Origin: Streptomyces canus
GTDB lineage: Bacteria; Actinomycetota; Actinomycetes; Streptomycetales; Streptomycetaceae
Assembly: GCF_041435015.1 (NCBI RefSeq)
Contig: NZ_CP107989.1
Coordinates: 7,192,001 to 7,256,000 of the forward strand
Direction: 5' to 3'
Length of the DNA: 64,000 bases
Position numbers and translations under genes: made by a program. The first letter of the stretch is position 1. Each line of letters opens with the position of its first letter. Positions 850 through 30,265 of this stretch are shown here, one piece after another. Below the pieces are notes generated by a model that had not been told where the DNA came from, made no database searches, and saw only the letters and a list, made by a program, of their open reading frames with translations.

Positions 850-2055
850 TTGGAACCAGCCGCTGCACCTGTCGTCGACCTTCCCGCCATACCGTTGCCG
901 CAGCCGGACATCCTGCAAGCTCCTCCGCTGGCCGGGGAGTTGCGCGAGAAGTGCCCGTTCGCCAAGGTACGCACGCCCGCCGGCGACGAGGCCTGGCTGG
1001 TCACCGGGTACGAGGCCATCAGACAGGTCTACTCCGACGACCGCTTCGGTGTCTCGCACCGCGATCCCGAGCACGCTCCCCGGCTCGGCGCCTCCACCCT
1101 CATCGGCGGACCGGGCGGAAACTTCGACACGGAGCCCGAGGACCGCATGCGGCTTCGTGCGCGGCTCTCGCCCTTCTTCTCGCCCAAGAGCATGGAGGCC
1201 TTCCGGCCCCGTATGGACGCTCTCGTGGAGGAGGTCCTGGACGACATCGTCGCGCAGGGCCCGCCCGCCGATCTGCACAGCGAGCTCGCCGTCCGGCTGC
1301 CCGTCAATGTCATCTGCGAGCTGCTGGGTGTGCCGCGCGAGGGCCGTCTCCCGTTCCGTGAATGGACGCAGGGCATCGCCGGTGTACGGGACGAGGCGCT
1401 GTCCCGCGACTGCATGGCCAAGCTGATGAGCTACACCGGGGACCTGGTCGCGGAGAAGCGCCGCAACCCCGGCGATGACGTCCTCTCCAGCCTCTGCGCC
1501 GCCGAAGGCGGTGGCCTGGACGACCGCCATGTCTCCTTCCTGGCCGCGATGCTGCTCTTCGCCGGCCACGAGACCACCGTCGCCCGCCTCGACCTCGGGG
1601 TCCTGCTGATGCTCGCCCACCCCGAGCAGCGGGAGATCCTCGAAAGGAACCCGGACCGGATCGGCAGTGCTGTCGAGGAGATCCTGCGGTTGGTGGTGCA
1701 CGGCGGCGCCAAGGAGACCTTCCGGTACGCCCGGGAGGACGCCGAGTTCGACGGCGTCAAGATCAAGGCCGGTGAACTCCTCGTGCTCTACAGCGCGGCC
1801 GGGAACCGCGACACGTACGCATTCGCCGATCCCGAATCCTTCGATGTACAGCGCTCGCCGAAGCCGAACCTCACCCTCGGCTTCGGGCGCCACTACTGCC
1901 TGGGCGCGCCCCTGGTCCGCATGGAGCTCGCCGCCGTCTTCTCCCGCATCTTCGACAAGCTCCCGGGGCTGCGACTGACCAAGCCCATCGGAGCGTTGGG
2001 GGTCAACAGCGGCTCGCTGCACGGCGGGATCACGGAGCTGCCCGTCACCTGGTGA
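850..2055 (+). CDS. Cytochrome P450 (class I, ferredoxin-dependent)
   Basis: A 401-residue soluble P450 of usual bacterial length, predicted to hydroxylate the cluster's terpenoid. Visible motifs are the I-helix oxygen-binding AGHETT (about residues 238-243), the K-helix ExxR in EEILR (about 276), and the haem loop GFGRHYCLG with ligand Cys350. The Phe normally seven residues before the Cys is a Leu, a mild deviation. The start is TTG at 850, preceded by an AGAGGGGA ribosome site; no ATG or GTG fits better. The gene is monocistronic, separated by a strong hairpin from the converging operon whose last genes include ferredoxin FdxA, a possible electron donor. The family is certain; substrate and position of oxidation are unknown. 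Confidence 0.93.
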   Translation: MEPAAAPVVDLPAIPLPQPDILQAPPLAGELREKCPFAKVRTPAGDEAWLVTGYEAIRQVYSDDRFGVSHRDPEHAPRLGASTLIGGPGGNFDTEPEDRMRLRARLSPFFSPKSMEAFRPRMDALVEEVLDDIVAQGPPADLHSELAVRLPVNVICELLGVPREGRLPFREWTQGIAGVRDEALSRDCMAKLMSYTGDLVAEKRRNPGDDVLSSLCAAEGGGLDDRHVSFLAAMLLFAGHETTVARLDLGVLLMLAHPEQREILERNPDRIGSAVEEILRLVVHGGAKETFRYAREDAEFDGVKIKAGELLVLYSAAGNRDTYAFADPESFDVQRSPKPNLTLGFGRHYCLGAPLVRMELAAVFSRIFDKLPGLRLTKPIGALGVNSGSLHGGITELPVTW

Positions 2056-2073
2056 GGCCCACTGCTCGCTACG

Positions 2074-2108
2074 AGGCCGCCGCCGTCAGGAGATGACGGC
2101 GGCGGCCT
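2074..2108. terminator. Bidirectional hairpin terminator between converging transcripts
   Basis: AGGCCGCCGCCGTCA (2074-2088) is perfectly complementary to 2094-2108, giving a 15-bp GC-rich stem with a 5-nt loop (GGAGA). It sits just past the P450 stop and at the end of the leftward kor operon, so it can serve both. There is no U-tract, as is common in Streptomyces. Confidence 0.85.
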
Positions 2109-2180: not shown

Positions 2181-2360
2181 TCAGCTGGGTTCCGGGGGTG
2201 GGCCGGCGAGGAAGGCGTCGACGCATTCCTCGTTGGCGGTGTTCAACACGGCGGGGGCGGTGGAGCAGCCGAGGATCACGATATCCCGGCGGCCTTGGGC
2301 CGCGTCGAAGACCGGATGCGGATCGGCGAGAGGGGCCGCGACGCCGGCGGTGCCCCTCAC
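2181..2360 (-). CDS. Small unknown protein, last gene of the kor/cys operon, possibly frameshifted
   Basis: A 59-residue reading frame whose GTG start overlaps the ferredoxin stop as GTGA, the same coupling used by korB and fdxA. Codon use looks coding (for example ADPHPVFDAAQGRRD and DIVILGCSTAPAVLN). It ends at a TGA at 2181 just after a C-rich run. In another frame, coding-like sequence continues (GTQLTFPDVLQ, then RARELAAATQKAAAVIS) to a stop at 2086-2088 inside the terminator stem, which would give about 90 residues. Either the gene is truly short, or a single-base indel in the C run has split it (mutation or assembly error). I do not recognise the family. Confidence 0.5.
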   Translation of the reverse strand: MRGTAGVAAPLADPHPVFDAAQGRRDIVILGCSTAPAVLNTANEECVDAFLAGPPPEPS

Positions 2361-2673
2361 GGTGTCCCGGCGGGCAGCGCCGCGACGATCGGGTGGTCGC
2401 GCTCGATCAGGCCGAACTTGGAGGCACCACCGGGCGAGCCGAGCTCGTCGAAGAACTCGACGTTCGCCTTGTAGTAGTCCTTCCACTCGTCCGGAGTGTC
2501 GTCCTCGTAGAAGATCGCCTCGACCGGGCAGACCGGCTCACAGGCACCACAGTCGACGCATTCGTCCGGGTGGATGTACAAGGACCGGGAGCCCTCGTAG
2601 ATGCAGTCGACCGGGCACTCCTCGATGCACGCCTTGTCCTTGACGTCGATGCAGGGCTGGGCGATCACATAGG

Positions 2674-2677
<4 letters not shown>
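2357..2677 (-). CDS. fdxA: 7Fe-8S ferredoxin FdxA
   Basis: A 106-residue low-potential ferredoxin. The N-terminal cysteines (Cys9, Cys17 and CPVDC at 21-25) form the [3Fe-4S] site pattern, and CVDCGACEPVC binds the [4Fe-4S] cluster. The C-terminal tail, with DEWKDYYKANVEFF, is typical of actinobacterial FdxA. The start is GTG at 2677 (AAGGAGA six bases upstream), overlapping the korB stop by 4 nt. Position directly after korA-korB indicates it accepts electrons from 2-oxoacid oxidation. It could then feed P450s or the iron-sulfur enzymes IspG and IspH of the same cluster; that last step is inference. Confidence 0.93.
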
Positions 2678-3745
<1,068 letters not shown>

Positions 3746-3756
<11 letters not shown>

Positions 3757-5665
3757 CGATGGCCTCCTGAATGCGCAGCGCGAGCTGCTCGGCCTTGAAC
3801 GGCATTCCATCGACCTGGGAGCAACTTTCCACGTCCATCAGGTACTTCGCCCTGAGGAGGGTGGCCAGTTGGCCCAGGTTCATCTCGGGAACGAGGACGC
3901 GCTCATAGGTGCCGAGAACTTCGCCGAGATTGCTTGGGAAGGGGTTGAGGTGGCGCAGGTGGGCCTGGGCGATGGGGTGGCTCTCGGCGCGCAGCCGGCG
4001 CACCGCGGCGGTGATCGGGCCGTAAGTGGAGCCCCAGCCCAGCACCAGGGTGCGGGCACTGTCCGGGTCGTCGACGGTGAGGTCGGGCACGGCGATGTTG
4101 TCGATCTTGGCCTGGCGGGTGCGGACCATGAAATCGTGGTTGGCCGGGTCGTACGAGATGTTCCCGGTGCCGTCCTGCTTCTCGATGCCGCCGATGCGGT
4201 GTTCAAGACCCGGCGTGCCGGGAATCGCCCACGGCCGGGCGAGAGTCTCCGGGTCGCGCTTGTAGGGCCAGAACACCTCGGTGCCATCGGCCTGTTGGTG
4301 GTTTGGTGCGGTGGCGAACCGGACCTGCAAGTCGGGCAAGCCGTGCACGGCCGGGATCCGCCAGGGCTCGGAGCCGTTGGCGAGATAGCCGTCGGAGAGC
4401 AGGAAGACCGGGGTGCGATACGTCAGTGCAATCCTTGCCGCCTCCAGGGCCGCATCGAAGCAGTCTGCGGGGGTCTGGGGGGCGACGATGGGCACCGGCG
4501 CCTCGCCGTTGCGGCCATACATCGCCTGCAACAGGTCGGCCTGCTCGGTCTTGGTGGGCAGCCCCGTCGAGGGACCGCCGCGCTGAATGTCCACGATCAA
4601 CAGCGGCAGTTCCAGCGAGACGGCCAGCCCGATGGTTTCCGACTTCAGTGCCACACCGGGCCCGGAGGTGGTGGTCACCGCCAGCGAGCCGCCGAAGGCC
4701 GCACCCAGCGCGGCGCCGATGCCGGCGATCTCGTCCTCGGCCTGGAAGGTACGCACTCCGAAGTTCTTGTGCCGGGAGAGTTCGTGGAGGATGTCGGAGG
4801 CCGGGGTGATGGGGTAGGAGCCCAGATACAGCGGCAGGTCGGCCTGGTGGGCGGCGGCGATCAAACCGTAGGACAGGGCCAGGTTCCCGGAGATGTTGCG
4901 GTAGGTGCCGGTGGGGAAGGCGGCGCCGGCGGGGGCGACTTGGTAGGAGACCGCGAAGTCCTCGGTGGTCTCCCCGAAGTTCCAGCCCGCATGGAGGGCC
5001 GCCAGATTCGCCCGCATGATCTCGGGCTTCCCGTCGAACTTTGCCTTCAAGAACCGCTCGGTGCCCTCGGTGGGCCGGTGGTACATCCACGACAGCAGGC
5101 CCAACGCGAACATGTTCTTCGACCGCTCAGCCTCCTTGCGGGACAGCTCGAAGTCCTTCAGTGCCTCCACCGTCAGCGTCGTCAGCGGCACTGGATGTAC
5201 GTGATAGGCCGCCAGCGAGCCGTCCTCCAGAGGCGAGACGTCGTAGCCGACCTTGGCCATCGCCCGCTTGGTGAACTCGTCGGTGTTGACGATGATCTCC
5301 GCGCCGCGCGGCACGTCCGCGATGTTCGCCTTCAAGGCGGCCGGGTTCATCGCCACCAGCACATCGGGCGCATCGCCCGGGGTGAGGATGTCGTGGTCGG
5401 CGAAGTGCAGCTGGAAGCTGGACACACCGGGCAGGGTGCCGGCGGGCGCCCGGATCTCGGCCGGGAAGTTCGGCAGCGTGGACAGGTCATTGCCGAACGA
5501 GGCGGTCTCCGAGGTGAACCGGTCACCCGTCAGCTGCATTCCGTCGCCCGAGTCACCCGCGAACCGGATGATCACCCGATCCAGCTGCCGCACCCGCTTG
5601 GCCTCGGGGATGTGCGCGGGGGTGGTCTCGATGGTCTGCTGGGGCCCGGTCTCACGGACCTGCAT
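3746..5665 (-). CDS. korA: 2-oxoacid (2-oxoglutarate):ferredoxin oxidoreductase, fused gamma-alpha subunit
   Basis: A 639-residue subunit with the gamma domain first (IIRFAGDSGDGMQLTGDRF, residues about 15-200). The alpha (pyrimidine-binding) part follows, with YPITPASDILHELS and TTSGPGVALKSE motifs, then the transketolase-C-like domain. Order and length match actinobacterial KorA. The start is ATG at 5665, with GGAGG seven bases upstream; it lies inside the 3' end of the upstream FAD gene (14-nt overlap), so translation is coupled. It works with KorB as a complex that makes reduced ferredoxin. Nothing is obviously missing. Confidence 0.93.
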
Positions 5666-8348
5666 GGGACACCTCCAGGACGGAACGCCGGCGATCGTCC
5701 AGCGGGCCGGGCCGCCGGTCCAGCCGGGCACTGAGGATGTCGGCTGCCTCACGCTGCCGACCGTCCGATATCAAGGCGTACAACAGGGTCTCCTCCACGA
5801 CCTCGTGCTGAGCGGCACTCCCGCCGACCGCCGAGAGCCGGGGCCGCAGTCGGCGCAGTGCGGCGACGGCCGCCGACCAGCGCTCCTCGACCACCGCGGT
5901 CAGCGCCTCGCACAGCGGTGCGATCACCTCCCGGAAGACGGGGGAGTCGTGCCCGTGCGCACGCCGGTGCAGCGCCCGCAGACGCCGTACATCAGAGGCG
6001 GCCGCCAGCGCCACCGCAGAGTGCAGGGCGGCGAAGGCGGTGGGCGGAGCCTCCAACCAGCCGACCGGCACCACGTCGAACAGCGCGTCCACGGGCAGCG
6101 GCCCCGGCCAGTGGTCCGCCATACGGCACCGCCACAGCAGCGAGGCCGAGTCCACCACGGCCCGGACCCCGGTCACCGCCGGAGGCGCCAGCTGCTGCTG
6201 GTAGCGGCGGAACACGGCGTCGCCGTCGGCCAGCATCAGCTCGTGCAGGGCGGCATGCCAGGCGAAGTGCGCCCGATGGTCCGAGCCGGCCCCTTGCTCG
6301 CCCAGCCAGCGGTCCAGCCAGGTCAGGCCACCCCGGTGCTGCCCGGTCTCGTAGAACACATGGGTCCTGGCATGCACCGCGTGCCCGGCCGCCGGTTCCG
6401 CGGCGAGCGCCCGGCAGGCCAGCGTCTCGGCCTCCTCCCAGCGCTCCTGCTCCTGGCGTACGAAGGCGAGTTGGCCGAGATACCACCAGTCCTCGCCGTA
6501 ACTCCCGGACAGACCCTCGACCAGCTGCCACGCCTGGCGGCCGCTGGTCACCCCGTCGAAGGAGATGGTGGGCACGGCGAGGGAGACGGCCAGCGCATCC
6601 CGCGGATGGGCCGCGACATGGCCGAGCAGCGCAGCGGCGCCCGCCGGTCCGCCGTGCCGGATCCGTTCGGTGACCGCCGCGACGAAGCGGCGCTCGCGTT
6701 CCGTCGCCCGGGTCGCGGCCCGCCCCGCGCGGTCCAGTGCGGCGCCCACCTCGACCTGCCCGCCGTGCTCATGCCCGAGAAGCGCCAGCACCGCATGGCC
6801 GAGCGCGAAACCGGGATCCGCGGTCAGCGCCTCGCGGAGCAGTGGAACAGAGCCGTGCTGTCCCTTCAGGATCCGGTCCAGCGCTTCCCCATAGCGGGCG
6901 GCCGCCTCCGGATTCGTAGTCAACCGGAGACCGAACCTGTCCCTGGACGGGCGGCGGTCCGCCGGCCCAGGGCCGGCGAGGAGGGAGACCACGGCCTCGG
7001 CAGTGCGGTCCGCCTGGACCCGGATCTCCGGGATGGCGGTGGACTCGAGGAGCTCACCGCGCCGCAGCGCCCCGATGGCCCACACCGCCGGAGTGCCGGC
7101 CGGTCCGGCCGCGGTCCGGAGCAGACCGTCCTCGCCGGTGTCGAGGCCGAGCCCGGTGGGGTGGACCCGGGCCAGCCCCGAGTCGAGCAGGCCGCGGATG
7201 AACGGGTCGTCGATCGCCGTCCAATCAGCCTGCGGGCCCGTGCAGTTGACCACGGCGCCGACCTGGAGCCGGGTGCCGTCGCTGAGCCCGACCCGTATCC
7301 CCTCCGCGGTGATCTCCGCGTCGGTCAGCTCGGCTGCCCGGACGCGCACCCGCCCGGACTCCCGGGCGGCGTGCAGGGCGCTCGCCGAGGCCGGTGGGAT
7401 GCGGTGCCGGTGCACCTCCCACAGCCGCAGGTCCTCGGCGAGGAAGCGGCTGCGGTCGGCGGTGGACAGCTGCTGCCACAGGGCGGCGGTGAGGTGCCGA
7501 ATGCTGTCGAAGGCCGGCCGCCAGTCCCCGGACTGGCGTCGGCCGCGAGCGAGATGGGTGAGGAACGTACGGCGCAGCTCCGGCAGCCCGCAGGCACCGG
7601 GGATCCGGGGCGCCGGGCAGGCGGCGGCCGAGGCGGTGGTGTGCGGCTGCGGCACCAGACCGTGCCGCGACACCGCGTGCACCACCCGGCCCGGCCGCTC
7701 CAGACCGATCGCCACATCGACCATGGTCAGTCCGGTCCCGACGAGCAGCACGTCCTGCTCGTCGGGTACGGAGTCGAGCGCGCCCGGGCCCCAGGGGGAG
7801 ACGATGAAACGGTGGGAGCCGACCATCGAAGCCGGGGCCCAGGTGCAGTCCGGGGCGAGGTTGCCGAGCGCGAGAACGGCGGAGTCGGCCTCGAGGGTCT
7901 GCCCGGAGGAGAGCTTCAACAGGAGTCGGCCGCCGCCGTGTTCGGCAGCGGTGACCCGTTCGTGCAAGCGGTGCAGCCGGGCAGGGCCGCCCGGCGCCGC
8001 CAACTCGTCCAGCACCTCGGACAGATACTCCCCGTACAGCGCGCGGGGCACGAACGCGGCCGGCGTCGCGGCGGGCAGCCGCCGGGTGACCCAGCGGACG
8101 AAGTGCTCGGGGTCCTCGACGAAGGCGCTCATCCGGGCAGCCGGCACATTGAGGACATGCCGGGGGTCGCTCGTGGCATAGGCGACGCCGCGGCCGGTGG
8201 CCTCGGCAGGGTCGACGCACCACACGTCCAGCGCGAGCCGGCACCGCCGGGCGTGCTGAAGGAGACGGGCCGCGGTGAGGGCGCCGGCGGCACCGGCACC
8301 GACGACGGCGACCTGGGCGGTCGCGCGCGGACGGGCTGGGCGGCTCAT
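5652..8348 (-). CDS. FAD/NAD(P)-binding protein fused to a C-terminal helical-repeat (TPR-like) domain
   Basis: An unusually large (898-residue) two-part protein. The N-terminal 460 residues are an FAD/NAD(P)-binding domain (VVGAGAAGALTAA near residue 14, LVGTGLTMVDVA in mid-domain, NCTG near the end), resembling the PF13454 type. From about 480 on, the sequence is alpha-helical, Ala/Leu/Arg-rich and repeat-like (for example EALTADPGFALGHAVLALLG, then HVFYETGQHRGGLTWLDRW), recalling TPR/TTC38-type folds. Its start overlaps the cysN stop as ATGA, and its 3' end overlaps korA, so it sits between sulfate activation and electron supply. It may act as a reductase, an oxidase or a scaffold; the reaction is unknown. 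The domain calls are by eye. Confidence 0.75.
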   Translation of the reverse strand: MSRPARPRATAQVAVVGAGAAGALTAARLLQHARRCRLALDVWCVDPAEATGRGVAYATSDPRHVLNVPAARMSAFVEDPEHFVRWVTRRLPAATPAAFVPRALYGEYLSEVLDELAAPGGPARLHRLHERVTAAEHGGGRLLLKLSSGQTLEADSAVLALGNLAPDCTWAPASMVGSHRFIVSPWGPGALDSVPDEQDVLLVGTGLTMVDVAIGLERPGRVVHAVSRHGLVPQPHTTASAAACPAPRIPGACGLPELRRTFLTHLARGRRQSGDWRPAFDSIRHLTAALWQQLSTADRSRFLAEDLRLWEVHRHRIPPASASALHAARESGRVRVRAAELTDAEITAEGIRVGLSDGTRLQVGAVVNCTGPQADWTAIDDPFIRGLLDSGLARVHPTGLGLDTGEDGLLRTAAGPAGTPAVWAIGALRRGELLESTAIPEIRVQADRTAEAVVSLLAGPGPADRRPSRDRFGLRLTTNPEAAARYGEALDRILKGQHGSVPLLREALTADPGFALGHAVLALLGHEHGGQVEVGAALDRAGRAATRATERERRFVAAVTERIRHGGPAGAAALLGHVAAHPRDALAVSLAVPTISFDGVTSGRQAWQLVEGLSGSYGEDWWYLGQLAFVRQEQERWEEAETLACRALAAEPAAGHAVHARTHVFYETGQHRGGLTWLDRWLGEQGAGSDHRAHFAWHAALHELMLADGDAVFRRYQQQLAPPAVTGVRAVVDSASLLWRCRMADHWPGPLPVDALFDVVPVGWLEAPPTAFAALHSAVALAAASDVRRLRALHRRAHGHDSPVFREVIAPLCEALTAVVEERWSAAVAALRRLRPRLSAVGGSAAQHEVVEETLLYALISDGRQREAADILSARLDRRPGPLDDRRRSVLEVSHAGP

Positions 8349-9610
8349 GGCTCGGTCCCTTCGGTCGTCGTACAGGCCGTGAGAGTGGCCCCGTCGTCCG
8401 GGGCGATGAGCAGGAAGGAACCCGTGTGCCGCGAAGCGGCATAGGGGTCGAGGGGCAGCGGCTGCGCGCTGCGCAGCACCACCGTTCCGAGGTCGTTGAC
8501 GTGCAGCGCCCCGGGTGCGCGGACCGGACCGCCGCCGCGACCTGGGTCGATCGCGTACGGGATGTCCTTGACGATCGCCTTGACGGTGCGGGTGGTGTGC
8601 TTGATCAGCACCCGGCTGCCGGGCGTGAGCGGTCGCTCGTGCAGATGGCAGACGGTGGCGGTGATGTCCTGGGTGAGGTGCGGGAGCCGGGAGGTGGGGG
8701 CGATCAAGTCGCCTCGGGAGACGTCGAGTTCATCGGCCAGGCGGAGGGCGACCGACTGCGGGGCGCGGGCCGCCGGCACGTCCTGACCGAGCGCGTCGAT
8801 GGCGGCGATTGTGGTGGTGTGCCCCGAGGGCAGCACGGTGACCTGTTCGCCGACTCGCAGGATGCCGGCGGCGATCCGGCCCGCGTAGCGGCGGACGCCC
8901 TCGTGCCGGATGACGTACTGGACGGGGAGACGGGCCGGGGCCGCGCCGAGATCCTCGTCGGCGGAGACCGCTTCGAGGTGCTCGAGGATGGTGGGGCCGC
9001 CGTACCAGTTCATGTGGGGGGAGGGCTCCACGACGTTGTCGCCGGCGAGCGCCGAGATCGGGATCGTGGTGATCTCGGGGACGCCCAACTCGCCGGCGTA
9101 CGCGGTGAATTCCTCTGCGATGGCGGCGAATACCTGCTCCTTGTACCCCACCAGGTCCATCTTGTTGACGGCGAGGGTGACGTGGGGGACGCGTAGGAGG
9201 GCGGCGACGGCGGCGTGGCGGCGGGTTTGTTCGACGACGCCGTTGCGGGCGTCGACCAGGACGAGGGCGAGGTCGGCGGTGGAGGCGCCTGTGACCATGT
9301 TGCGGGTGTACTGCACGTGGCCGGGGGTGTCGGCGAGGATGAAGCGGCGGCGGGTGGTGGCGAAGTAGCGGTAGGCCACATCGATGGTGATGCCCTGTTC
9401 GCGTTCGGCGCGCAGGCCGTCGGTGAGCAGCGCCAGGTCGGGGGCGTCCCCCATCGATGCGCGCCGCACCGCGTCGAGCTGGTCGCTGAGGATCGACTTC
9501 GAGTCGTAGAGCAGCCGGCCGACGAGGGTGGATTTGCCGTCGTCGACGGAGCCGGCGGTGGCGAAGCGCAGCAGGGTGGTGGCCGACCGGTGCTCTGTGG
9601 CAGTCGTCAT
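8345..9610 (-). CDS. cysN: Sulfate adenylyltransferase subunit 1 (GTPase)
   Basis: A 421-residue elongation-factor-like GTPase that drives ATP sulfurylase (sulfate + ATP to APS). Visible are the P-loop in AGSVDDGKSTLVGRLLYDSK (about 16-35), switch II DTPGHVQYTRNM and the NKMDLVGY base-recognition motif, followed by EF-Tu-like domain 2/3. The start is ATG at 9610, overlapping the cysD stop by one base (TGATG); longer forms run into cysD. It forms a heterodimer with CysD. It has no CysC extension, so APS kinase is the separate upstream gene. Confidence 0.95.
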   Translation of the reverse strand: MTTATEHRSATTLLRFATAGSVDDGKSTLVGRLLYDSKSILSDQLDAVRRASMGDAPDLALLTDGLRAEREQGITIDVAYRYFATTRRRFILADTPGHVQYTRNMVTGASTADLALVLVDARNGVVEQTRRHAAVAALLRVPHVTLAVNKMDLVGYKEQVFAAIAEEFTAYAGELGVPEITTIPISALAGDNVVEPSPHMNWYGGPTILEHLEAVSADEDLGAAPARLPVQYVIRHEGVRRYAGRIAAGILRVGEQVTVLPSGHTTTIAAIDALGQDVPAARAPQSVALRLADELDVSRGDLIAPTSRLPHLTQDITATVCHLHERPLTPGSRVLIKHTTRTVKAIVKDIPYAIDPGRGGGPVRAPGALHVNDLGTVVLRSAQPLPLDPYAASRHTGSFLLIAPDDGATLTACTTTEGTEP

Positions 9611-11138: not shown

Positions 11139-11167
11139 GCAGCCCCCCCACTCGGACAAGGCGCCGG

Positions 11168-20990: not shown

Positions 20991-21142
20991 ACCTGACATT
21001 CTCCCCGTTGTCCGTCAGTGATGCGGGCTCCCATCGCATGGCCGATTATGGCACTTCGTGCACCGATCCGGCCAGGAAATGTTTTTTTATTTGACTGTCG
21101 GACATTGTCCCCTCGTTGCCACTTGATTTGCCCCGGGTGCAC

Positions 21143-22015: not shown

Positions 22016-22073
22016 GCCCCACTCCCTCTTCCGACTTCCGGCTCCTCGGCGTGCCAAGGCCGCGCGACAAGGC

Positions 22074-22298: not shown

Positions 22299-23597
22299 TC
22301 ACCACTCCACCGGGACTTCCTCGAATCCGACGACGATCAGCCCCTGCTTGACCCGGAGCTCCCGGCGGTCGATCGCCAGCCGCAGCGTGGGCAGCCGACG
22401 CGCCAACGTGCCGAGCACCACTTGCAGTTCGGCCCTGGCCAGCGGTTGGCCGAGGCAGAAATGGGGGCCGGCGCCGAACGAAAGGTGCTGGTTGTTGGTG
22501 CGCCGCAGATCCATCCGCTCCGGCTCGGGGAAGCGCCGTGGATCGCGGTTGGCGATCGCGGGGCTGACGATGACCGTGGAGCCCGCTCCGATCTCCGCGC
22601 CACCCACCGCGATGTCCTCGCTCACATAGCGCGGCACCCCGATGCTGGGATTGGTGTCGAAGCGCAGCACCTCGTCGACGGCGCTCGGCACGATCGACGG
22701 ATCGGCCACCACCGTCTCGAAGCGGCTGCGGTCGGCGAGCAGCATCGCCGTCATCTTCCCGATCATGTTGGCGGTGGTCTCGTGTCCTGCCACCAGGATC
22801 GCCATGGCCGTGACGATCAGCTCCACCATGTCGAGCCGGCCGTCCTCGCTGTCGGTGATGTTGATCAGCTCGCTGAGTAGATCGTCCCCGGGCTCGGCCC
22901 GTTTCGCCTCGATCAGCTTGGCCAGATAGATACCGAAGTCCTGCCGGGCCGCGTCCACTTCGGCCTTGCTGTGCCGGGTGAGCGTCAGGATCGCGTCCGA
23001 CCAGGTAGCGAACCGGTGCAGATCCTCGGTCGGCACTCCCAGCAGATCGCCGATCACCCGGACCGGCAGGATCGCGCCGATGTCCCGGGCGATGTCCGCC
23101 CGGGGGCCGGCCGCGACCATCTTGTCGACCAGTTCGTCCGCGAGCGCCTGGATCCGCGGCCGCATGCTCTCCACCCGCTTGATGGTGAAGGCCTTCGCCA
23201 TCAAGCGGCGCCAGCGCAGATGCCCTTCGCCCTCGAAGATCTTCAGCCCGCTGGTCGCCTGCCGGCTGAACACCCCGCCGTCCTCGCTCGCCCCGATCCG
23301 GGACTCGGCGTCGGCCGGTATCTGCCGGGTGAAGCGCGGATCCGCGAGCAGCGCCCTGGCCTCCTCGTAGCGGGTGACCAGATGCGCCTCGTCGCCGCTG
23401 GGCAGCCGCACGGCGACCACCGGGCACTGCTCCCGCACCTGCTCCCACTCCACCGGCGGATCCAGCGGAACGGCGCCGCTGAACGGGTAGTCGAGCAGGT
23501 CCCGCCCTGCCGCGGCAGGTTGGGTCCCGTGCATCACCGGGCACGTCTGCGCCGGGCCCGGCGCCGCTTCGGTCAGCGGCGGTTCGGTCGTGGTCAT
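22299..23597 (-). CDS. Cytochrome P450
   Basis: A 432-residue soluble P450 with I-helix LVAGHETTAN, K-helix DEVLR and the haem loop FGAGPHFCLGQPLAR, all canonical. The start at 23597 is preceded by GGGAG. Second of two adjacent P450s and next to the ferredoxin gene. Predicted late-stage oxygenation of the cyclised terpene. The region is unremarkable in base composition. Confidence 0.93.
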   Translation of the reverse strand: MTTTEPPLTEAAPGPAQTCPVMHGTQPAAAGRDLLDYPFSGAVPLDPPVEWEQVREQCPVVAVRLPSGDEAHLVTRYEEARALLADPRFTRQIPADAESRIGASEDGGVFSRQATSGLKIFEGEGHLRWRRLMAKAFTIKRVESMRPRIQALADELVDKMVAAGPRADIARDIGAILPVRVIGDLLGVPTEDLHRFATWSDAILTLTRHSKAEVDAARQDFGIYLAKLIEAKRAEPGDDLLSELINITDSEDGRLDMVELIVTAMAILVAGHETTANMIGKMTAMLLADRSRFETVVADPSIVPSAVDEVLRFDTNPSIGVPRYVSEDIAVGGAEIGAGSTVIVSPAIANRDPRRFPEPERMDLRRTNNQHLSFGAGPHFCLGQPLARAELQVVLGTLARRLPTLRLAIDRRELRVKQGLIVVGFEEVPVEW

Positions 23598-23637: not shown

Positions 23638-24864
23638 TCACCAGGTGACCGGAAGGTCGATCAGGCCGCGCATGAACGCACCCTCGCGCCACCGCAGTTC
23701 CTCGTCGGGGACAGCGAGTTGCAGCCCCGGGAAGCGCCGCAGCAGGGTGCCAAGGGCCACCTGGAGCTCCATCCGGGCCAGCTGCGCCCCGATGCAGTAG
23801 TGCGGCCCGTGTCCGAAGGCCAGATGCGGGACGGCGGCCCGCTGGAAGTCGATCTCGTCGGCGCGGTCGAACACCGCGGCGTCCCGGTTGCCCGAGGTCT
23901 TGGCGAGGAGCACTGAGTCGCCCTTGCGGATCAGCACATTAGCCAGCGGCACGTCCTCGGCCGTCCACAGCGGCAGTCCGGCGAAGCCCAGCGGCAGATA
24001 GCGCAGCAGCTCCTCGATCGCCTCGGGCAGCCGCTCCGGGTGCGCCAGCAGCTCCTGCCACAGGTCGGGCCGGGTGAGCAGAGTGTAGGTGAAGTTGGTG
24101 ATCTGGTTCTGGGTGGACTCGTGGCCGGCCACGAACAGCAGCATCACTATGGAGTGCAGCTCGTCCATGCTGAGCCGGTCGCCCTCCTCCTGCACCTGGA
24201 TCAGCCGGCTGATGAGGTCGTCGTCGGGGGTGCGCCTGCGCTCCTGAAGTACCTCGGCCATATAGGCCTTGAACTCCGCGGTGGCGTGCGCGACCTCCTC
24301 GGGCGTGTGGTCGCTGATGGAGAGCATCGCGCGCACCCAGGAGTGCACCTTGCGCTGGTCCGGAGTGGGCACGCCGAGCAGCTGGGCGATGATGGTGATC
24401 GGCATCGGCAGACACAGCGCGGCGACCAGGTCCGCGGGGCCGCCGCTTGCCTCCATCGCATCCAGCAGCTCATCGGCGGTGGCCTGCACCCGGGGCCGCA
24501 GCTCCTCGATCCGGCGCACCGTGAAGGCCTTGGTGACCAGCCGTCGGATCTGGGTGTGCTCCGGTGGATCGGTCATCGGCAGGATCGCCGAGCGGGCCTT
24601 GCCGATGTCCTTGGTGGCGGCTGTGACCGCACGCCCTTCCATCGGAGCCCGCCGGAATCGGGAATCGGTCAGTACGGACTTGATGTCCTCGTACCGCGTT
24701 ACCAGCCAGGCGTCGCCGCCGTGCGGCATCCGGACCTTGCTCACCGGCTCGTCCACCCGCAACTTGGCGTAGCGCGGGTCGTGTTCGAGGCGCACATCCT
24801 GGGCGAAGGGGCAGACCGGCGGCTCCACCGTGTCGGAGCCGACCACTTCCGTTTCGTTGATCAT
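23638..24864 (-). CDS. Cytochrome P450
   Basis: A 408-residue P450. The I-helix reads FVAGHESTQN (Ser instead of the first Thr), the K-helix EELLR, and the haem loop FGHGPHYCIGAQLARMEL. The start is ATG at 24864 behind GGAAGG and overlapping the cyclase stop as ATGA; the longer upstream frame belongs to the cyclase strand and is rejected. Direct coupling to the cyclase gene suggests it acts early on the cyclised product. Confidence 0.93.
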   Translation of the reverse strand: MINETEVVGSDTVEPPVCPFAQDVRLEHDPRYAKLRVDEPVSKVRMPHGGDAWLVTRYEDIKSVLTDSRFRRAPMEGRAVTAATKDIGKARSAILPMTDPPEHTQIRRLVTKAFTVRRIEELRPRVQATADELLDAMEASGGPADLVAALCLPMPITIIAQLLGVPTPDQRKVHSWVRAMLSISDHTPEEVAHATAEFKAYMAEVLQERRRTPDDDLISRLIQVQEEGDRLSMDELHSIVMLLFVAGHESTQNQITNFTYTLLTRPDLWQELLAHPERLPEAIEELLRYLPLGFAGLPLWTAEDVPLANVLIRKGDSVLLAKTSGNRDAAVFDRADEIDFQRAAVPHLAFGHGPHYCIGAQLARMELQVALGTLLRRFPGLQLAVPDEELRWREGAFMRGLIDLPVTW

Positions 24865-26540
24865 GTCAATGCCTTCCAGTACCGGCCCAGTGCCTGCAGG
24901 GCGTACCCGCTGGCGAGGAGATCGTCGGAATACCACAGATCGAGGAAGTACACGCCGAGCAGCGTCGGCTCCCACAGCGCTTCGGAGGTCTGCTCGTGCA
25001 GCAGCCGGCGCACCCCGCCCTGGACGGCCTCCTCCCGCGGGTCGGCGCCCGCGCCGAGCAGACCCATCACGGCCCAGGCGGTCTCCTCCACCGAGGAGGG
25101 CGCGCCCTCGCCGTCACCCCAACCACCGTCCGGCTGCTGGGTGCGCAACAGCCAGGTGCGGGCCCGGCGCGCCGTGTCGCTGCCACCCAGCCCCAAACCG
25201 CCCAGCGCGTCCAGGACTTGACCGGTGCCGGCGGTGCTGCCGCGATACCAGAGGCAGGGCAGCGAGCCGTCCGGACGCTGGGTCTTGGCGAACCAGCGCA
25301 CCGCCTTCGCCAGCGGAGGGGCGTCCGCGCCGAGCCCGCCGGCCAGCCGCAGCGCCGCCACCGCGTGGGAGGTGATCACCGCGCAGGGGGCGTCGAGGGC
25401 GACATGGTTGTCGCGGCAGAAGCAGCTCCAGGAGCCGTCCCTGTTCTGCATGGCCAGCAGCCAGTCGAGGCCCGCCCTGACCCGTGGATCGGTGGGCCCG
25501 CAGCCCGCGCCGGCCAGCGCCAGCAGCGCATCTGCCGTGTCGTCGCAGTTCGGCCAGCCCGACTCCACCGACCAGGCCCAGCCGCCCGGGGGGCAGCCGG
25601 TCGCCATGAAGCCGGCGTCCCACTGGCAGGTCCGAATCCAGTCGATCGTCGAACTCAGCCGCGGATCGTCGGCGAATCCGCACTCCTGCAGACCGGCCGC
25701 GAGGAAGGTGGTGACCGAGAACTCCAGGTCGCGATTGACCGCCCAGGAGCCGTCCGGCCGCGCCGTCAGCCGCAGATAGCCCGCCATCCGCTCGACCAGA
25801 TCGGGGCGCACCCCCGCGCGGGCGAAGGCGAAGCACACCATGGAGACGAGCAGCGGCGACTCCTGCATGCCGCCTTCCTTGCCCTGGCTGAGCAGCAGCT
25901 CGTCGAAGTACGCGTACGCGCGCGGCTCGGCGAGCCGGGACACCGCCCGCAGGATCCGCCCCTGCGGCCAGGTGTGCCGCTGCATCACCGCCCAGGACAG
26001 GGTGACCGGCACGACGAACGACACCTTCTGGCGCAGCTTCCGGGGGAGCAGCGCCACCGCGGCCGGCATCCGGCGGATCCGCCGCTCGTCGTACAGGCCG
26101 GCCAGGGCCAGGAACTGCAGGCAGAGCACATGCAGGGCGCAGCGGTCGGGGTCGGCGACTGCGGCCATCCCGCCGCGGCTCTCGATCCAGTCGAGCCCGC
26201 GCCGCACATCCTGCCGTGATTCCTCGGCGGCGAGCAGCCGCAGCGCGGCCACCGCGAACGCGGAGGCCGGCAGTGTGGCCGGGGTGCCGGGGCCGTCGCC
26301 CCAGCCACCGGTGGGGAGTTGGTTCGCGCGGAGCCAGTCGAGCGCGCTGCGGATCAGCTCGGCCGAGCCCTCCGGGTCGGCGAAGTGCAGGGCGACCGCC
26401 GAGGTGGCGGTGGAGATGGCGGCGGAGGGCAGGTGGTCCTGCCAGGAGCCGTCCGGGCGGCGCACGGCGAACAGTTGCTGGGCGGCCGAGTCGATGGCCC
26501 TCCGCACCTGGGCAGGCGGCCGTGCTCCTGATGCGATCAC
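24861..26540 (-). CDS. Squalene-hopene-cyclase-like (class II) terpene cyclase with altered DxDD motif
   Basis: A 559-residue alpha/alpha-barrel protein with many QW-type repeats (RPDGSWQDH, LPTGGWGDG, QNRDGSWSC, QRPDGSLPC, QQPDGGWGDG), as in class II cyclases. The acid motif region GWAWSVESGWPNCDDTADAL aligns with SHC's, but reads N331-C-D333-D334: the first Asp of DxDD is Asn, while the middle Asp, the proton donor in SHC, is kept. Such a site may prefer an easily protonated epoxide, which fits the FAD epoxidase in the partner operon (inference). The start is GTG at 26540, with GGAG nine bases upstream. About 60-80 residues shorter than true SHC. Confidence 0.82.
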   Translation of the reverse strand: MIASGARPPAQVRRAIDSAAQQLFAVRRPDGSWQDHLPSAAISTATSAVALHFADPEGSAELIRSALDWLRANQLPTGGWGDGPGTPATLPASAFAVAALRLLAAEESRQDVRRGLDWIESRGGMAAVADPDRCALHVLCLQFLALAGLYDERRIRRMPAAVALLPRKLRQKVSFVVPVTLSWAVMQRHTWPQGRILRAVSRLAEPRAYAYFDELLLSQGKEGGMQESPLLVSMVCFAFARAGVRPDLVERMAGYLRLTARPDGSWAVNRDLEFSVTTFLAAGLQECGFADDPRLSSTIDWIRTCQWDAGFMATGCPPGGWAWSVESGWPNCDDTADALLALAGAGCGPTDPRVRAGLDWLLAMQNRDGSWSCFCRDNHVALDAPCAVITSHAVAALRLAGGLGADAPPLAKAVRWFAKTQRPDGSLPCLWYRGSTAGTGQVLDALGGLGLGGSDTARRARTWLLRTQQPDGGWGDGEGAPSSVEETAWAVMGLLGAGADPREEAVQGGVRRLLHEQTSEALWEPTLLGVYFLDLWYSDDLLASGYALQALGRYWKALT

Positions 26541-26682
26541 GTTCACTCCGGGTACGGGGTAGGGAAAGGCCTGCAAGGACGGGACTCTTCGGGGGCCGGG
26601 AAGGGGAGGGACGGGCAGGGTCCCCCGACGATCGCAGGGCGGTGGCGGTGGCGTCGACAGCGTTCGGACAGTCCGGTCGGGG

Positions 26683-26701
26683 TGCCCCGATCGGCTACCC
26701 C
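26683..26701. promoter_or_regulatory. Third copy of the TGCCCGATCGG-CTACCCCA motif
   Basis: TGCCCCGATCGGCTACCCC matches 13394-13411 apart from one inserted C. It overlaps the last codons of the small membrane-protein gene and lies about 145 bp upstream of the cyclase start, where a promoter for the cyclase/P450 transcript could be. It contains the 8-bp palindrome CCGATCGG. Confidence 0.35.
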
Positions 26702-27240
26702 ACCAGACGGCTGGGTGCCTTCTGGAGGACACCGTGCGCGGCCTCGGCCTCGCGCGCCACTCGTCTGCCGCCGAAATAGATGACGCCGACCCGGGCCAGC
26801 ATCGTGGCGATGTTCAGGAAGATGAACGCGGCCCGCATGGCGTCCGGGCTGATGGCGTTCTCGTGCATCCAGGTGCCGAGCGCCCTGCCGAACCAGTGCG
26901 TGGATCCGTACGAGAACGACAGCTTGGCCACGGTGATGGCCACCCAGGCGGCAACGAAGGCCACTCCGGTACGGGAGAAAGCCCGTTGCCTTACGGCGTC
27001 GTACTCGAATCGCATGAACGAGGAGGCGGCGAGTCCGAGAAGCGCGCCGAGCAGGACCGCGCCTCCTTCGAGGAGCAATCCGTTCTCGGAGGTGTCCATT
27101 CCGCGGAAGAAGACAGGGACCAGTACGAGGGCACTGACCAGGGGACGGAGGATTCTGAACGCACCGACTTTGCGCCGCCCGATATCGCTTTCCAAAGCAA
27201 TGGCAAAGACGATGAGGTTGAGCCAATACGCACTGTTCAC
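26695..27240 (-). CDS. Small polytopic membrane protein of unknown function
   Basis: A 181-residue protein with about five hydrophobic helices (starting at about 5, 29, 54, 88 and 130) and conserved-looking charged turns: ESDIGRRKVGAFRILRP, SSFMRFEYD and GSTHWFGR. The start is GTG at 27240 with GGAGG five bases upstream; the longer frame lacks a ribosome site. Two TCAACCC-type motifs precede it. It might be a small integral-membrane terpene cyclase like those recalled from phenalinolactone or indole-sesquiterpenoid clusters. It might instead be one of the small membrane proteins often found beside Streptomyces sensor-kinase/regulator pairs, which is what lies upstream. Sequence alone does not decide. 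Confidence 0.7.
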   Translation of the reverse strand: MNSAYWLNLIVFAIALESDIGRRKVGAFRILRPLVSALVLVPVFFRGMDTSENGLLLEGGAVLLGALLGLAASSFMRFEYDAVRQRAFSRTGVAFVAAWVAITVAKLSFSYGSTHWFGRALGTWMHENAISPDAMRAAFIFLNIATMLARVGVIYFGGRRVAREAEAAHGVLQKAPSRLVG

Positions 27241-27302
27241 TGGTCCTCCGGCCAACGGAAACAATTCCGATTTCAGGCTAGGGACGGCACCGACAGATGT
27301 AA

Positions 27303-27318
27303 TCGAACCCCGGGTTGA
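27303..27318. promoter_or_regulatory. Candidate operator, TCAACCC-type dyad (reverse orientation)
   Basis: TCGAACCCCGGGTTGA is the reverse complement of 20159-20174. It lies 63 bp upstream of the membrane-protein start and 29 bp from another copy, an arrangement typical of an activator or repressor site. Confidence 0.5.
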
Positions 27319-27346
27319 TCTCTGCCGTAGGCATTGTTGTGACGAT

Positions 27347-27362
27347 TCAACCCTGGGGTGGA
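27347..27362. promoter_or_regulatory. Candidate operator, TCAACCC-type dyad
   Basis: TCAACCCTGGGGTGGA, the second copy in the 183-bp gap between the response-regulator gene and the membrane-protein gene. Its right half is weaker than that of the other copies. Confidence 0.45.
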
Positions 27363-27423
27363 GCAGGGTGGAGGGCCCTTGGGCGGAGCCTCGTGGAGGG
27401 CGCGACACATGACGCCCAGCAGG

Positions 27424-28110
27424 TCATGAATCGCCGATTGAGGCCAGCCCGTTGCGGTAGGCATAGCGCACCGCCTGTGCACGGTCGCGCACCTGGGCCT
27501 TGGCGAAGATTCGGTTGATGTGCGTCTTCACGGTCGCCTCGCTGACCTGCAGCAGCTCCATCATCTCCCGGTTGGATCGGCCGGCGGCGATCAGGCGCAG
27601 CACATCGCACTCACGAGGCGTCAGCCCGTCCGGTATGTCCTGCTCGGCGGTCGCCGGTGCCGCCTCGCCGGTGTCGAGCGCGTGCTGTGCGCCCCGGGAC
27701 ACCAGGCCACGGCCTTCGGCGGCCGCCACCAGCGCCTCGCAGATCTCCTGCCGGCCCGCGTCCTTGGTGAGAAAGCCCAGCGCTCCGGCCCGGAAGGCCT
27801 CGGTGACCTCAGCGTCGTCGACATAGGTGGTCAGCACCACGAAGCGGATGCCCGGGTCCACGGCCCTGATCCGGCGAATCGCGCCGACCCCCGACAGCAG
27901 CGGCATCCGCAGATCGATGAGGACCACGTCGGGCCGGGCGTCCAGAACCACGGACACCGCCTCCTCGCCGTCGGCGGCCTGCCCCACGACGACGATGTCG
28001 GGCTGAAGTCCGAGCAGGACGGCAAGGCCGTCCCGTACCACGGGATGGTCGTCCGCGACGACCACGCGAACGGGCGATCTGCGCCGACGGGACGGGTCGG
28101 TCGTGGTCAT
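27424..28110 (-). CDS. NarL/FixJ-type response regulator
   Basis: A 228-residue regulator with a normal receiver (acidic pocket VADDH near 18-22, phospho-acceptor Asp66 in LIDLRMP, Lys in LTKDAG) and a LuxR helix-turn-helix (LTPRECDVLRLIAAGRSNRE, then SEATVKTHINRIFAK). The start is ATG at 28110, overlapping the sensor-kinase stop (ATGA). The pair presumably senses an unknown signal and controls this cluster. Unlike the regulator at 20259 it keeps all phosphorylation residues. Confidence 0.93.
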   Translation of the reverse strand: MTTTDPSRRRRSPVRVVVADDHPVVRDGLAVLLGLQPDIVVVGQAADGEEAVSVVLDARPDVVLIDLRMPLLSGVGAIRRIRAVDPGIRFVVLTTYVDDAEVTEAFRAGALGFLTKDAGRQEICEALVAAAEGRGLVSRGAQHALDTGEAAPATAEQDIPDGLTPRECDVLRLIAAGRSNREMMELLQVSEATVKTHINRIFAKAQVRDRAQAVRYAYRNGLASIGDS

Positions 28111-29285
28111 AGCGGAATCCTCAGGTGTACGCGCCAACTGTCTTTGTGCGGACCCGCGTCGAGCAGGCCGCCGACCACCTCGGCCCGTTCACGCATCCCC
28201 GCCAGACCGTACCCCGTGCCGCACTCCGCCAACCCGGCGACGCCTTGGTCGCCGCCCGCCGGGGCGCCGACCGGCTCCGGCACCCGATTGACGACCGTCA
28301 GCTCCACCTCGCCCGGCCGGTACCGCAGTTCGGTCTCCACCCGGCTGCCCGGAGCGTGCTTGCGGACATTGGTGAGCGCTTCCTGAGCGGTGCGGTAGAG
28401 CGTCATCGTGATGTCGGCCGGCAGCTCTACGGGGTCGCCGACGGCACGGAACTCGGCCGCCGCACCGTCCTGTTCGCGGTAGACGCCGAGGATGCCGACC
28501 AGCATCTGCTCCAGCGGCAGGGTCTCGCCGCGCAGCGCGAGGATGGCGCGCCGGGTCTCCACGATGCCCTCGTTGGTGAGCTGTTCGGCGCGGCCGACCC
28601 AGGGCCGGATCCGGTCGGCGCCCGCGCCGTCCTCCACCAGGGCGTCGATCGCCTTCAACTGGACGGAGAGCGCGGCGAGTGAATGGGCCAGGATGTCGTG
28701 GATCTCCCGCGCTATCCGGGTGCGCTCCGCGAGGGTGGCGGCCCTGGCGTGCTCCTGGGCGGCGTACTCGGCATTGCTGAGCAGGAGTTCGGACTGCTCG
28801 GCGCGCTGCACGTACTGCCAGCGGAGGGTGCCGAGCAGTGCGCAGGCGAACAGCAGCAGCAGGTGCGGTACGGCGAAATTCCAACCGGCGGCCAGATGTC
28901 CCGCCAGGACGCCCGCCGTGCAGGCGACGCCCAGGGCGAACATGCGACGGTGTGCGAGCCGTGCGCCGGCGTCGGTGAGGGCGACGGCGGGGAAGGCGAT
29001 GGCGCCGCTGTGCGGGCTGAGGCCGGCGAGGACTCCGCCGGGGACTCCGATGAGCACCCAGGCGATGATGACGGCGTACCGGGGGAGCCAGTCGGAGGCG
29101 AGCCAGAGCGGCCAGCCGGCGGTGGCCAGGGACAGCGTGATGCCGACCGCGAGGCCCTGGCCCTGCCAGCCCGGCCGGGGGTCGACCCGGGCGATGTTGA
29201 CGATGAGCACGATGAGTCCGAGCAGTCGGACGGTACGCAGCGGCCAGCTGAGCTGCTGTTGGAAGGGCGCGCCCAGAATGATCAC
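28107..29285 (-). CDS. Sensor histidine kinase (NarL-system type)
   Basis: A 392-residue membrane kinase with five to six N-terminal transmembrane helices (to about 155), then a HisKA_3 dimerisation domain with the phospho-His196 in IAREIHDILAHSLAAL. The C-terminal HATPase has TAQEALTNVRKHAPGS and GYGLAGMRERA. The GTG start at 29285 overlaps the ispE stop (GTGA), tying it to isoprenoid supply. There is no large extracellular sensor domain, so it probably senses within the membrane or through a partner. Pairs with the regulator immediately downstream. Confidence 0.92.
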   Translation of the reverse strand: MIILGAPFQQQLSWPLRTVRLLGLIVLIVNIARVDPRPGWQGQGLAVGITLSLATAGWPLWLASDWLPRYAVIIAWVLIGVPGGVLAGLSPHSGAIAFPAVALTDAGARLAHRRMFALGVACTAGVLAGHLAAGWNFAVPHLLLLFACALLGTLRWQYVQRAEQSELLLSNAEYAAQEHARAATLAERTRIAREIHDILAHSLAALSVQLKAIDALVEDGAGADRIRPWVGRAEQLTNEGIVETRRAILALRGETLPLEQMLVGILGVYREQDGAAAEFRAVGDPVELPADITMTLYRTAQEALTNVRKHAPGSRVETELRYRPGEVELTVVNRVPEPVGAPAGGDQGVAGLAECGTGYGLAGMRERAEVVGGLLDAGPHKDSWRVHLRIPL

Positions 29286-30265
29286 GCCCGGTCGGCCTCC
29301 GGCCCGGGTGCGGTTGCCGGCTTCGGCGCGTACCGTACGAGCGGCCCCTCTCCGGAGGAGGTCGCCGCTGCTGCCGAGGTGCAGGTGCCGGAGGCCGACA
29401 GGCCCTCCGCCACCAGGGCGGCGCTCCGGGCGTCCGGCACCAGGAAGACACAGGTGGGGCCGGAGCCGGAGACGAACCCGGTCAGGGCGCCCAGCGTGCG
29501 GCCGACCCGAAGCGTGTCATGGAGCTTCGGCCGCAGTGAAAGAGCCGCCGGCTGAAGGTCGTTCGCGTGGCCCTCACCAGGTGGCGCGGACGTGTACTCG
29601 TCGAGGGCCCGGGCGAGTGCCGGCGCATCCCCCGCCGCCAAGGCCTTGAGGACCGGCGGGAAAGGAAGCGGATCGGGTATTCGGGCCGCGCCCCGCAGCC
29701 GGTCGCACTCCCGGTACACCGCCGAGGTCGAGAGTCCGCCCGCCGCGACCGCCACCACCCAGTGCAGGGGGCCGCCGAGCGGCAGCGCGGCGAGCCGCTC
29801 GCCGCGACCCAGCCCCAGCGCGGCCCCACCCGTCAGACAGAACGGTACGTCGCTGCCCAAGTCTGCGCCGATGCCGAGAAGTTCGGGAAGGGCGAGGTCG
29901 GCCTCCCACAGTCGGGCACAGCCGAGCAGCGCTGCCGCCGCGTCGGCGCTGCCGCCCGCCATGCCACCGGCCACAGGGATGCCCTTGGCGATGTGCACGG
30001 CCACCGAGGGCCGGACGCCGAGCCGTTCGGCCAGCGCCGTGGTCGCCCGCGCCGCCAGATTGCCGCCGTCCGTCGGCACCAGGTCCGAGTCCGGGCCGGA
30101 GACGGTGATCCGCAAGGCGTCCGCCGCGGTGACCGTCACCTCGTCGTAGAGACCGACTGTGAGGAAGACGGTGGCCAGTTCATGGAAGCCGGCCGGCTCG
30201 GGACCACCGACCGACAACTGGACGTTGATCTTGGCGGGTACCTGGATGGTGACGCCAGGAATCAC
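29282..30265 (-). CDS. ispE: 4-Diphosphocytidyl-2-C-methyl-D-erythritol kinase
   Basis: A 327-residue GHMP kinase of the MEP pathway. The substrate motif VPAKINVQLSVGG is at the N-terminus. The ATP loop IPVAGGMAGGSADAAAALL lies near 97-115, and GSGPTCVFLV is the C-terminal GHMP motif. The start is GTG at 30265, after a loosely spaced AAGGGAA. It heads the leftward operon with the two-component genes. Housekeeping ispE in Streptomyces normally sits near ksgA, so this may be a dedicated copy (inference). It marks the right edge of the terpenoid cluster as I draw it. Confidence 0.93.
   Translation of the reverse strand: MIPGVTIQVPAKINVQLSVGGPEPAGFHELATVFLTVGLYDEVTVTAADALRITVSGPDSDLVPTDGGNLAARATTALAERLGVRPSVAVHIAKGIPVAGGMAGGSADAAAALLGCARLWEADLALPELLGIGADLGSDVPFCLTGGAALGLGRGERLAALPLGGPLHWVVAVAAGGLSTSAVYRECDRLRGAARIPDPLPFPPVLKALAAGDAPALARALDEYTSAPPGEGHANDLQPAALSLRPKLHDTLRVGRTLGALTGFVSGSGPTCVFLVPDARSAALVAEGLSASGTCTSAAAATSSGEGPLVRYAPKPATAPGPEADRA

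Follow-up and report, generated by a model that had tools for sequence, protein, structure and literature searches.

The early steps of phenalinolactone biosynthesis are reportedly prenylation, then epoxidation, then cyclization, going by the title of a 2024 study, and the phenalinolactone cluster has dedicated genes of the methylerythritol phosphate (MEP) pathway. The tiancilactones are said, again in a study title, to have been discovered by mining atypical type II diterpene synthases. They are described as deriving from geranylgeranyl diphosphate (PMC11069151), and Streptomyces sp. CB03234 is named as a producer (PMC10301674). For sulfation, the adipostatin (adp) operon of Streptomyces davaonensis is described as carrying a sulfotransferase (ST), adenosine 5'-phosphosulfate (APS) kinase, CysD and CysN in that order; the ST is reported to act experimentally, and the cassette for 3'-phosphoadenosine 5'-phosphosulfate (PAPS) to improve sulfation (PMC12135136). 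The notonesomycin cluster is likewise described with a PAPS operon and an ST, and a sulfomenaquinone cluster of Mycobacterium tuberculosis (Stf3) with both is cited in the same paper (PMC7081687). Here we analyze a stretch of 64,000 nucleotides from the 10.68 Mb genome of Streptomyces canus (contig NZ_CP107989.1, positions 7,192,001 to 7,256,000; hereafter the window), which holds a gene cluster with both kinds of module. We consider it likely that this cluster is self-supplied and makes a sulfated polycyclic terpenoid, in all likelihood a meroterpenoid. The core is of a known kind, as is the sulfation cassette; their combination appears to be new. Apart from a near-identical copy in Streptomyces jeddahensis, no cluster with all parts was found in what was searched. 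In line with a first-pass annotation of the locus, no matching characterized cluster was found in searches of open-access papers (MIBiG lay outside the comparison), and no actinomycete cluster for a sulfated cyclic terpenoid came up there either.

Gene runs and the sulfation cassette

Genes were called by codon-position G+C content and assigned to families by Pfam and NCBIfam scans (Table 1). All genes named in the first-pass annotation were recovered: three cytochrome P450s, a polyprenyl synthase, an FAD epoxidase-like enzyme, a UbiA protein, a squalene-hopene-cyclase-like (SHC-like) protein, a short-chain dehydrogenase (SDR), two ferredoxins, and the MEP, cys and ST genes. The dxs, ispG, ispH and ispE products all score above the cut-off of one or more NCBIfam equivalogs, those of cysC, cysD and cysN pass TIGR00455, TIGR02039 and TIGR02034, and the ST falls into PF13469. 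The kor genes, for a 2-oxoacid:ferredoxin oxidoreductase (KOR), were confirmed for KorA (TIGR03710 passed) and only partly for KorB, which matches TIGR02177 below the cut-off (242.4 versus 261.9 bits). The cluster spans 850-30382 of the window; the extent of 850..30265 proposed earlier was slightly short on the right, where IspE forms the end at about 30382.

By their coordinates, the genes lie in about three tight runs. Run 1, on the minus strand from 13206 to 2357, comprises UbiA, sulfotransferase, cysC, cysD, cysN, an FAD/NAD(P)-binding protein, korA, korB and fdxA, and all nine genes overlap or abut. Run 2 (plus strand, 13499 to 19945) contains the prenyl synthase, epoxidase, dxs, ispG and ispH genes, and run 3 (minus strand, 30382 to 21209) ispE, sensor kinase, response regulator, small membrane protein, SHC-like cyclase, two P450s, ferredoxin and SDR. 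A LuxR gene (20259-20999) and the P450 gene at 850-2055 are outside the runs. The nine-gene run ties sulfation to the terpenoid core and, judged by spacing, the sulfation genes and KOR are apparently on one transcript with UbiA. The idea that cys and kor are features of the locus independent of the terpene genes was not borne out, as they form one run with UbiA and lie inside a transferred block (see below).

The ST gene is followed by cysC, cysD and cysN, in the order of the adp cassette. Both PAPS-binding motifs are intact in the ST, and its similarity to a PDB entry is weak and covers residues 146-190 only (protein-tyrosine sulfotransferase 2, E 0.0008). A separate assimilation operon elsewhere in the genome encodes sulfite reductase, CysH, CysC, CysD and CysN. 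The cluster copy is without sulfite reductase and CysH and thus fits PAPS supply. ATP sulfurylase of the PF01747 family was not found in the genome, as expected for the CysD/CysN type.

Relatives of the ST (E 1e-15) occur in 42 of 295 Streptomyces genomes, own included. CysC and CysD stand beside it in 6 of the 19 non-own Streptomyces ST loci among the matches listed. In regions of about 10 to 20 kb around these six loci, CysN follows and no other window gene matched; the one locus tested with Pfam (L148) has a type III polyketide synthase. The six cassette loci encode STs with 41-45% identity to the window ST, which has its own branch in the tree; this tree was built quickly and carries a long-branch warning.

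The terpenoid core and its class II cyclase

A scan with a UbiA alignment covered the contigs of 84,980 species, each represented by a single genome, and gave 104 stretches and 84 relatives, of which 80 were kept. Each locus extends 10 kb to either side, or as far as the contig does, and gene presence was called by tblastn (E 1e-15). A prenyl synthase was present in 71 of these loci, an SHC-like cyclase in 70, an epoxidase in 59, and all four core genes in 52. The four-gene core is a widespread actinobacterial family. Locus L048 of Streptomyces sp. CB03234, which we take as the tiancilactone cluster from strain and gene content rather than from published coordinates, also holds all four, which bears out the phenalinolactone-type resemblance proposed in the first pass. 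A contig labelled Candidatus Melainabacteria (L067) has prenyl synthase, UbiA, SHC, epoxidase and P450 matches; its cyclase groups with Nocardia, and it is possibly a mis-binned contig of a metagenome-assembled genome.

In an alignment of 38 sequences, the aspartates of the two UbiA motifs (GDYFDRELD and RDMDGDKEGG) never vary, and both motifs are seen again across the loci. Both motifs would suit a prenyltransferase or a terpene cyclase. The protein might then cyclize, as in platencin or lydicene biosynthesis, and the product be a pure terpenoid without a joined acceptor; UbiA-type diterpene cyclases are indeed described (PMC10301674). We regard this as unlikely, as the SHC-like protein already provides a cyclase. 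The prenylation, epoxidation and cyclization in the title of the phenalinolactone study also argue for a UbiA protein that joins prenyl chain and acceptor.

In the prenyl synthase, the residues before the DDxxD motif are ESGHVASLVH in the window, ECGHVASLVH in L058 of Kibdelosporangium persicum and EYLHVATLIH in the tiancilactone strain; the window and L058 enzymes have a glycine eight residues ahead of DDxxD. K. persicum is described as making C35 persicamidines (PMC10107436). One may guess that the glycine position sets prenyl chain length and that L058 makes persicamidines. SHC-like genes are found on both K. persicum contigs bearing UbiA loci (L058 and L036), and L058 also has P450 matches and, by eye, a glycosyltransferase-like gene; it is again a guess that L058 or L036 could be the C35 persicamidine cluster.

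The predicted model of the window cyclase (pLDDT 93.1) has the squalene-hopene-cyclase fold, with squalene-hopene cyclase 3sqc as best Foldseek match (E 1.7e-24, TM-score 0.83 on query length), and so reads as a protein that would work like a class II cyclase. Its NCDD motif aligns with DVDD of squalene-hopene cyclase, with the second and third aspartates retained and asparagine in first place. Across the 70 cyclase loci the DXDD region takes many forms, including NFLD (L048), VTLES, MALET, ESED, NSGN and others. Strict DXDD was found in three (L022, L026 and L099), and the region did not align in L071 and L096. Given this variation, one may ask which residue acts as the proton donor in many members of the family. 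In a tree of 69 cyclases, the window groups with Actinoplanes sp. KI2 (100/100) within a 19-row clade (100/100), beside which stands a seven-row clade with the L048 cyclase.

Related clusters and probable recent transfer

S. jeddahensis (G25; loci L021, L161 and L169) carries the block 671-30432 at 97.2-98.6% identity over large pieces, and the 17 genes compared have 96.9-99.3% DNA identity. Outside the block, identity is 85.8% at 11-598 and 80.3-80.4% farther left, and matches resume to the right at 58064 and 62441 (83.4-84.5%). Six genes of the housekeeping sulfate locus have 86.5-90.8%. The left flank is collinear, which points to the same insertion site, and since identity in the block is far above that of the flanks and the housekeeping locus, the cluster probably spread recently as one unit with edges near 671 and 30432. 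To the right of the cluster, at 30522-34232 and 35862-40228, the window has a gene for a hybrid histidine kinase with a SpoIIE phosphatase domain and arabinofuranosidase genes; this region gave no blastn match on the S. jeddahensis contig.

The S. jeddahensis contig is without 7,154 bp (window 3300-10453), with a blunt join at L021 12751/12752, equivalent to window 3299/10454. The missing stretch takes in cysN, the FAD gene and korA entirely; of cysD only the first 86 bp are left, and of the korB open reading frame (ORF) the last 626 bp, its upstream 511 bp being absent. ST and cysC are in place. The gap is either a deletion or a misassembly.

A third form of the cluster is found in Actinoplanes sp. 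KI2 (L023, L166 and L167), in the order ST-UbiA / prenyl synthase-epoxidase-Dxs-IspG-IspH-small membrane protein-SHC-P450-ferredoxin-SDR / response regulator-histidine kinase. Identities to the window are 77% for SHC, 73% for ST and 87% for IspG, and it is a diverged version of the window cluster. It has one P450 where the window has three, and its neighbors include a methyltransferase and a glycosyltransferase gene. No match for cysC, cysD, cysN, KOR or IspE was obtained within the 32 kb fetched.

These two relatives bear on whether the window holds one cluster or two. The LuxR gene between the halves and ispE at the far end would suit two independent adjacent clusters with different products, one with UbiA, epoxidase, MEP and sulfation genes (850-19945) and one with SHC, P450 and SDR genes (21209-30382). 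SHC, UbiA, epoxidase and prenyl synthase are nevertheless together in 52 of 80 loci, the small membrane protein gene, SHC, P450b, ferredoxin and SDR directly follow IspH in KI2, and S. jeddahensis shares the whole block. We rejected this reading as very improbable on the KI2 gene order and the co-transferred block. More than chance proximity is indicated by the block kept in S. jeddahensis and by the same core, MEP and ST set in KI2.

An ST gene is present in 13 of the 80 UbiA loci, in two separate ST groups. The window lineage is found in S. jeddahensis (L021) and KI2 (L023), and the other group in 11 loci of Streptomyces and Streptantibioticus (L038, L050, L051, L064, L070, L071, L080, L084, L086, L089 and L096), eight of which carry the MALET cyclase motif; no cys matches were found within these loci as fetched. 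With two different groups beside one core in the quick ST tree described above, ST was probably joined to it at least twice.

The cys and kor run could also be a chance insertion or serve sulfate assimilation, with an unsulfated mature terpenoid and an ST whose action lies elsewhere or serves to activate an intermediate for elimination. The orthologous KI2 cluster without cys and kor is in line with this, as is the S. jeddahensis contig, where cysN and korA are missing altogether, cysD nearly so, and the korB ORF is short of its upstream 511 bp. Against it, ST has UbiA and cysC as its neighbors here and again adjoins UbiA in KI2 (73% identity), the cluster copy is without the CysH and sulfite reductase that the separate operon has, and the ST-cysC-cysD-cysN order is that of the characterized adp cassette. 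We therefore judge an unsulfated product to be improbable. The sulfated terpenoid predicted in the first pass is the reading we retain, as suggested by the ST-cysC-cysD-cysN run, the intact PAPS motifs and the ST beside UbiA in KI2.

The small membrane protein (26695-27408) belongs to a family of 17 proteins among the matches listed, own included, from a set of 5.8 billion proteins. No support was seen for a Pyr4-like membrane cyclase; three of the 17 listed proteins of this small family carry PF07301, which we take to be DUF1453.

Table 1. Genes of the cluster, with coordinates in the window and the evidence for each assignment.
Feature	Coordinates	Strand	Evidence and remarks
Cytochrome P450 (a), pentalenolactone-synthase-like	850..2055	+	PF00067; NF045816 below cut-off; 98.8% nucleotide identity in S. 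jeddahensis
Ferredoxin, FdxA type, last gene of nine-gene run	2357..2677	-	NF045480 FdxA_Actino above cut-off
KorB, 2-oxoacid:ferredoxin oxidoreductase beta	2674..3810	-	PF02775; TIGR02177 242.4 bits, below cut-off 261.9
KorA, 2-oxoacid:acceptor oxidoreductase alpha	3746..5752	-	TIGR03710 above cut-off; true start probably near 5665
FAD/NAD(P)-binding protein, 898 residues	5652..8348	-	PF13454; no Pfam match past residue ~230
CysN, sulfate adenylyltransferase GTPase subunit	8345..9610	-	TIGR02034 above cut-off; GTP-binding motif; putative start at 9610, mechanical ORF extends to 10048
CysD, sulfate adenylyltransferase small subunit	9610..10539	-	TIGR02039 above cut-off
CysC, APS kinase (PAPS formation)	10527..11246	-	TIGR00455 above cut-off; P-loop
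Sulfotransferase (ST)	11168..12193	-	PF13469; both PAPS-binding motifs; 73% identical protein adjoins UbiA in KI2
UbiA-family membrane prenyltransferase or cyclase	12190..13206	-	PF01040; Asp of both motifs invariant in 38 sequences
Trans-polyprenyl diphosphate synthase (C20 or longer)	13499..14545	+	PF00348, 7e-57; ESGHVASLVH precedes DDIID
FAD-dependent epoxidase-like monooxygenase	14630..15949	+	PF01494 1.5e-37; PF08491 squalene epoxidase 2e-9; homologue in 59/80 UbiA loci
Dxs	15946..17820	+	TIGR00204 above cut-off
IspG, one of four copies in genome	17817..18953	+	NF001540 above cut-off
IspH	18950..19945	+	NF002189 above cut-off
LuxR-type regulator	20259..20999	-	PF00196
Short-chain dehydrogenase (SDR)	21209..22057	-	PF00106; 68% in KI2
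Small single-cluster ferredoxin, probable P450 partner	22074..22268	-	PF13370; 61% in KI2
Cytochrome P450 (b)	22299..23597	-	PF00067; 76% in KI2
Cytochrome P450 (c)	23638..24975	-	PF00067
SHC-like class II terpene cyclase, NCDD motif	24861..26732	-	PF13243/PF13249; 77% in KI2
Small membrane protein	26695..27408	-	Adjoins SHC in KI2 too, 47%; PF07301 in three homologues
Response regulator	27424..28137	-	PF00072/PF00196; 63% in KI2
Sensor histidine kinase	28107..29285	-	PF07730; 49% in KI2
IspE	29282..30382	-	NF002870 and TIGR00154 above cut-off

Proposed pathway and comparison with known systems

Gene content, order, motifs and co-transfer are observed, and the reactions, acceptor, chain length and sulfation site proposed here are read from the enzyme families. 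Dxs, IspE, IspG and IspH would raise isoprenoid supply, with KOR and FdxA supplying electrons to IspG and IspH, and the prenyl synthase would make a prenyl diphosphate of C20 or longer, which UbiA would couple to a small acceptor. Epoxidation of the terminal alkene would fall to the FAD enzyme; the class II cyclase may then protonate the epoxide via an aspartate of NCDD, so that rings close and a hydroxyl remains. The three P450s, with ferredoxin and SDR, would oxidize the skeleton. CysD/CysN and CysC would make PAPS, and the ST would place sulfate on a hydroxyl (O-sulfation). A narrower version, which we put forward only tentatively and hold to be rather doubtful, is that the product is a sulfated cyclic terpenoid larger than C20 (a sester- or sesquarterpenoid), formed when an NXDD-type class II enzyme cyclizes an epoxide; this could be the first pathway to a cyclized terpenoid that has its own PAPS cassette together with an enzyme dedicated to reducing ferredoxin for the Fe-S steps of the MEP pathway.

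IspG and IspH require reduced ferredoxin or flavodoxin, and KOR with FdxA as electron source is for this reason the simplest reading; they probably deliver low-potential electrons to these Fe-S enzymes. A second terpene locus of the same genome (L109; C1:2170000-2187000, 266-12256) has TauD, a class I terpene synthase, P450, IspH, Dxs, IspG, KorA, KorB and FdxA, and a locus in another Streptomyces (L209) has KOR with IspG, IspH and Dxs. The link between KOR and the MEP genes, seen in these two places and the window, is suggestive, and KOR more probably serves MEP supply than sulfation. Two broader uses of KOR were discarded. It is not a general partner of MEP genes, as IspG, IspH and Dxs accompany it only in L209 among 16 non-own regions (17 were fetched, the 16 coming from nine genomes, with multi-copy genomes preferred and many housekeeping copies among them), and KorA alone is no cluster marker, as at least 193 of 199 Streptomyces genomes have one at E 1e-100 or better. 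Of 295 Streptomyces genomes, the source genome among them, 40 encode a homologue of the FAD protein at 5652-8348. This protein is not a fixed partner of cys or kor either, adjoining CysN or KorA in none of 11 non-own loci, nor in three wider regions.

Several observations weigh against the proposed pathway. The cys and kor genes are found in none of the 80 UbiA loci except L021 of S. jeddahensis, which is the same cluster, and KI2 has ST without them; when the gene set was sought in other genomes, core and cys occurred together only in the window and, partly deleted, in S. jeddahensis. Asparagine replaces the first aspartate of DXDD in the cyclase, MEP genes stand beside KOR in only one of the 16 non-own regions, and the FAD protein, between cysN and korA, has no step assigned to it.

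If the proposed pathway is true, the cluster is a naturally mobile pathway with isoprenoid supply, activated sulfate and probably low-potential electrons built in. The two ST groups beside one core suggest that sulfated members may be a recurrent, overlooked branch of the family.

With the tiancilactone and phenalinolactone type, the window has in common the prenyl synthase, UbiA, SHC-like class II cyclase and FAD epoxidase. It differs from L048 of the tiancilactone strain in the cyclase, which has NFLD there versus NCDD here and falls into a separate clade, and in the TauD and FAA-hydrolase genes of L048, neither of which is among the window genes scanned; L048 in turn gave no ST, cys or kor match. 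The sulfomenaquinone and notonesomycin clusters are set apart by their descriptions, which as cited mention no class II cyclase or epoxidase. Sulfomenaquinone is an isoprenoid quinone, so that a sulfated prenylated compound with PAPS genes has a precedent (PMC7081687). The adp cassette has the gene order of the window; it decorates a type III polyketide, whereas the window has a terpenoid core.

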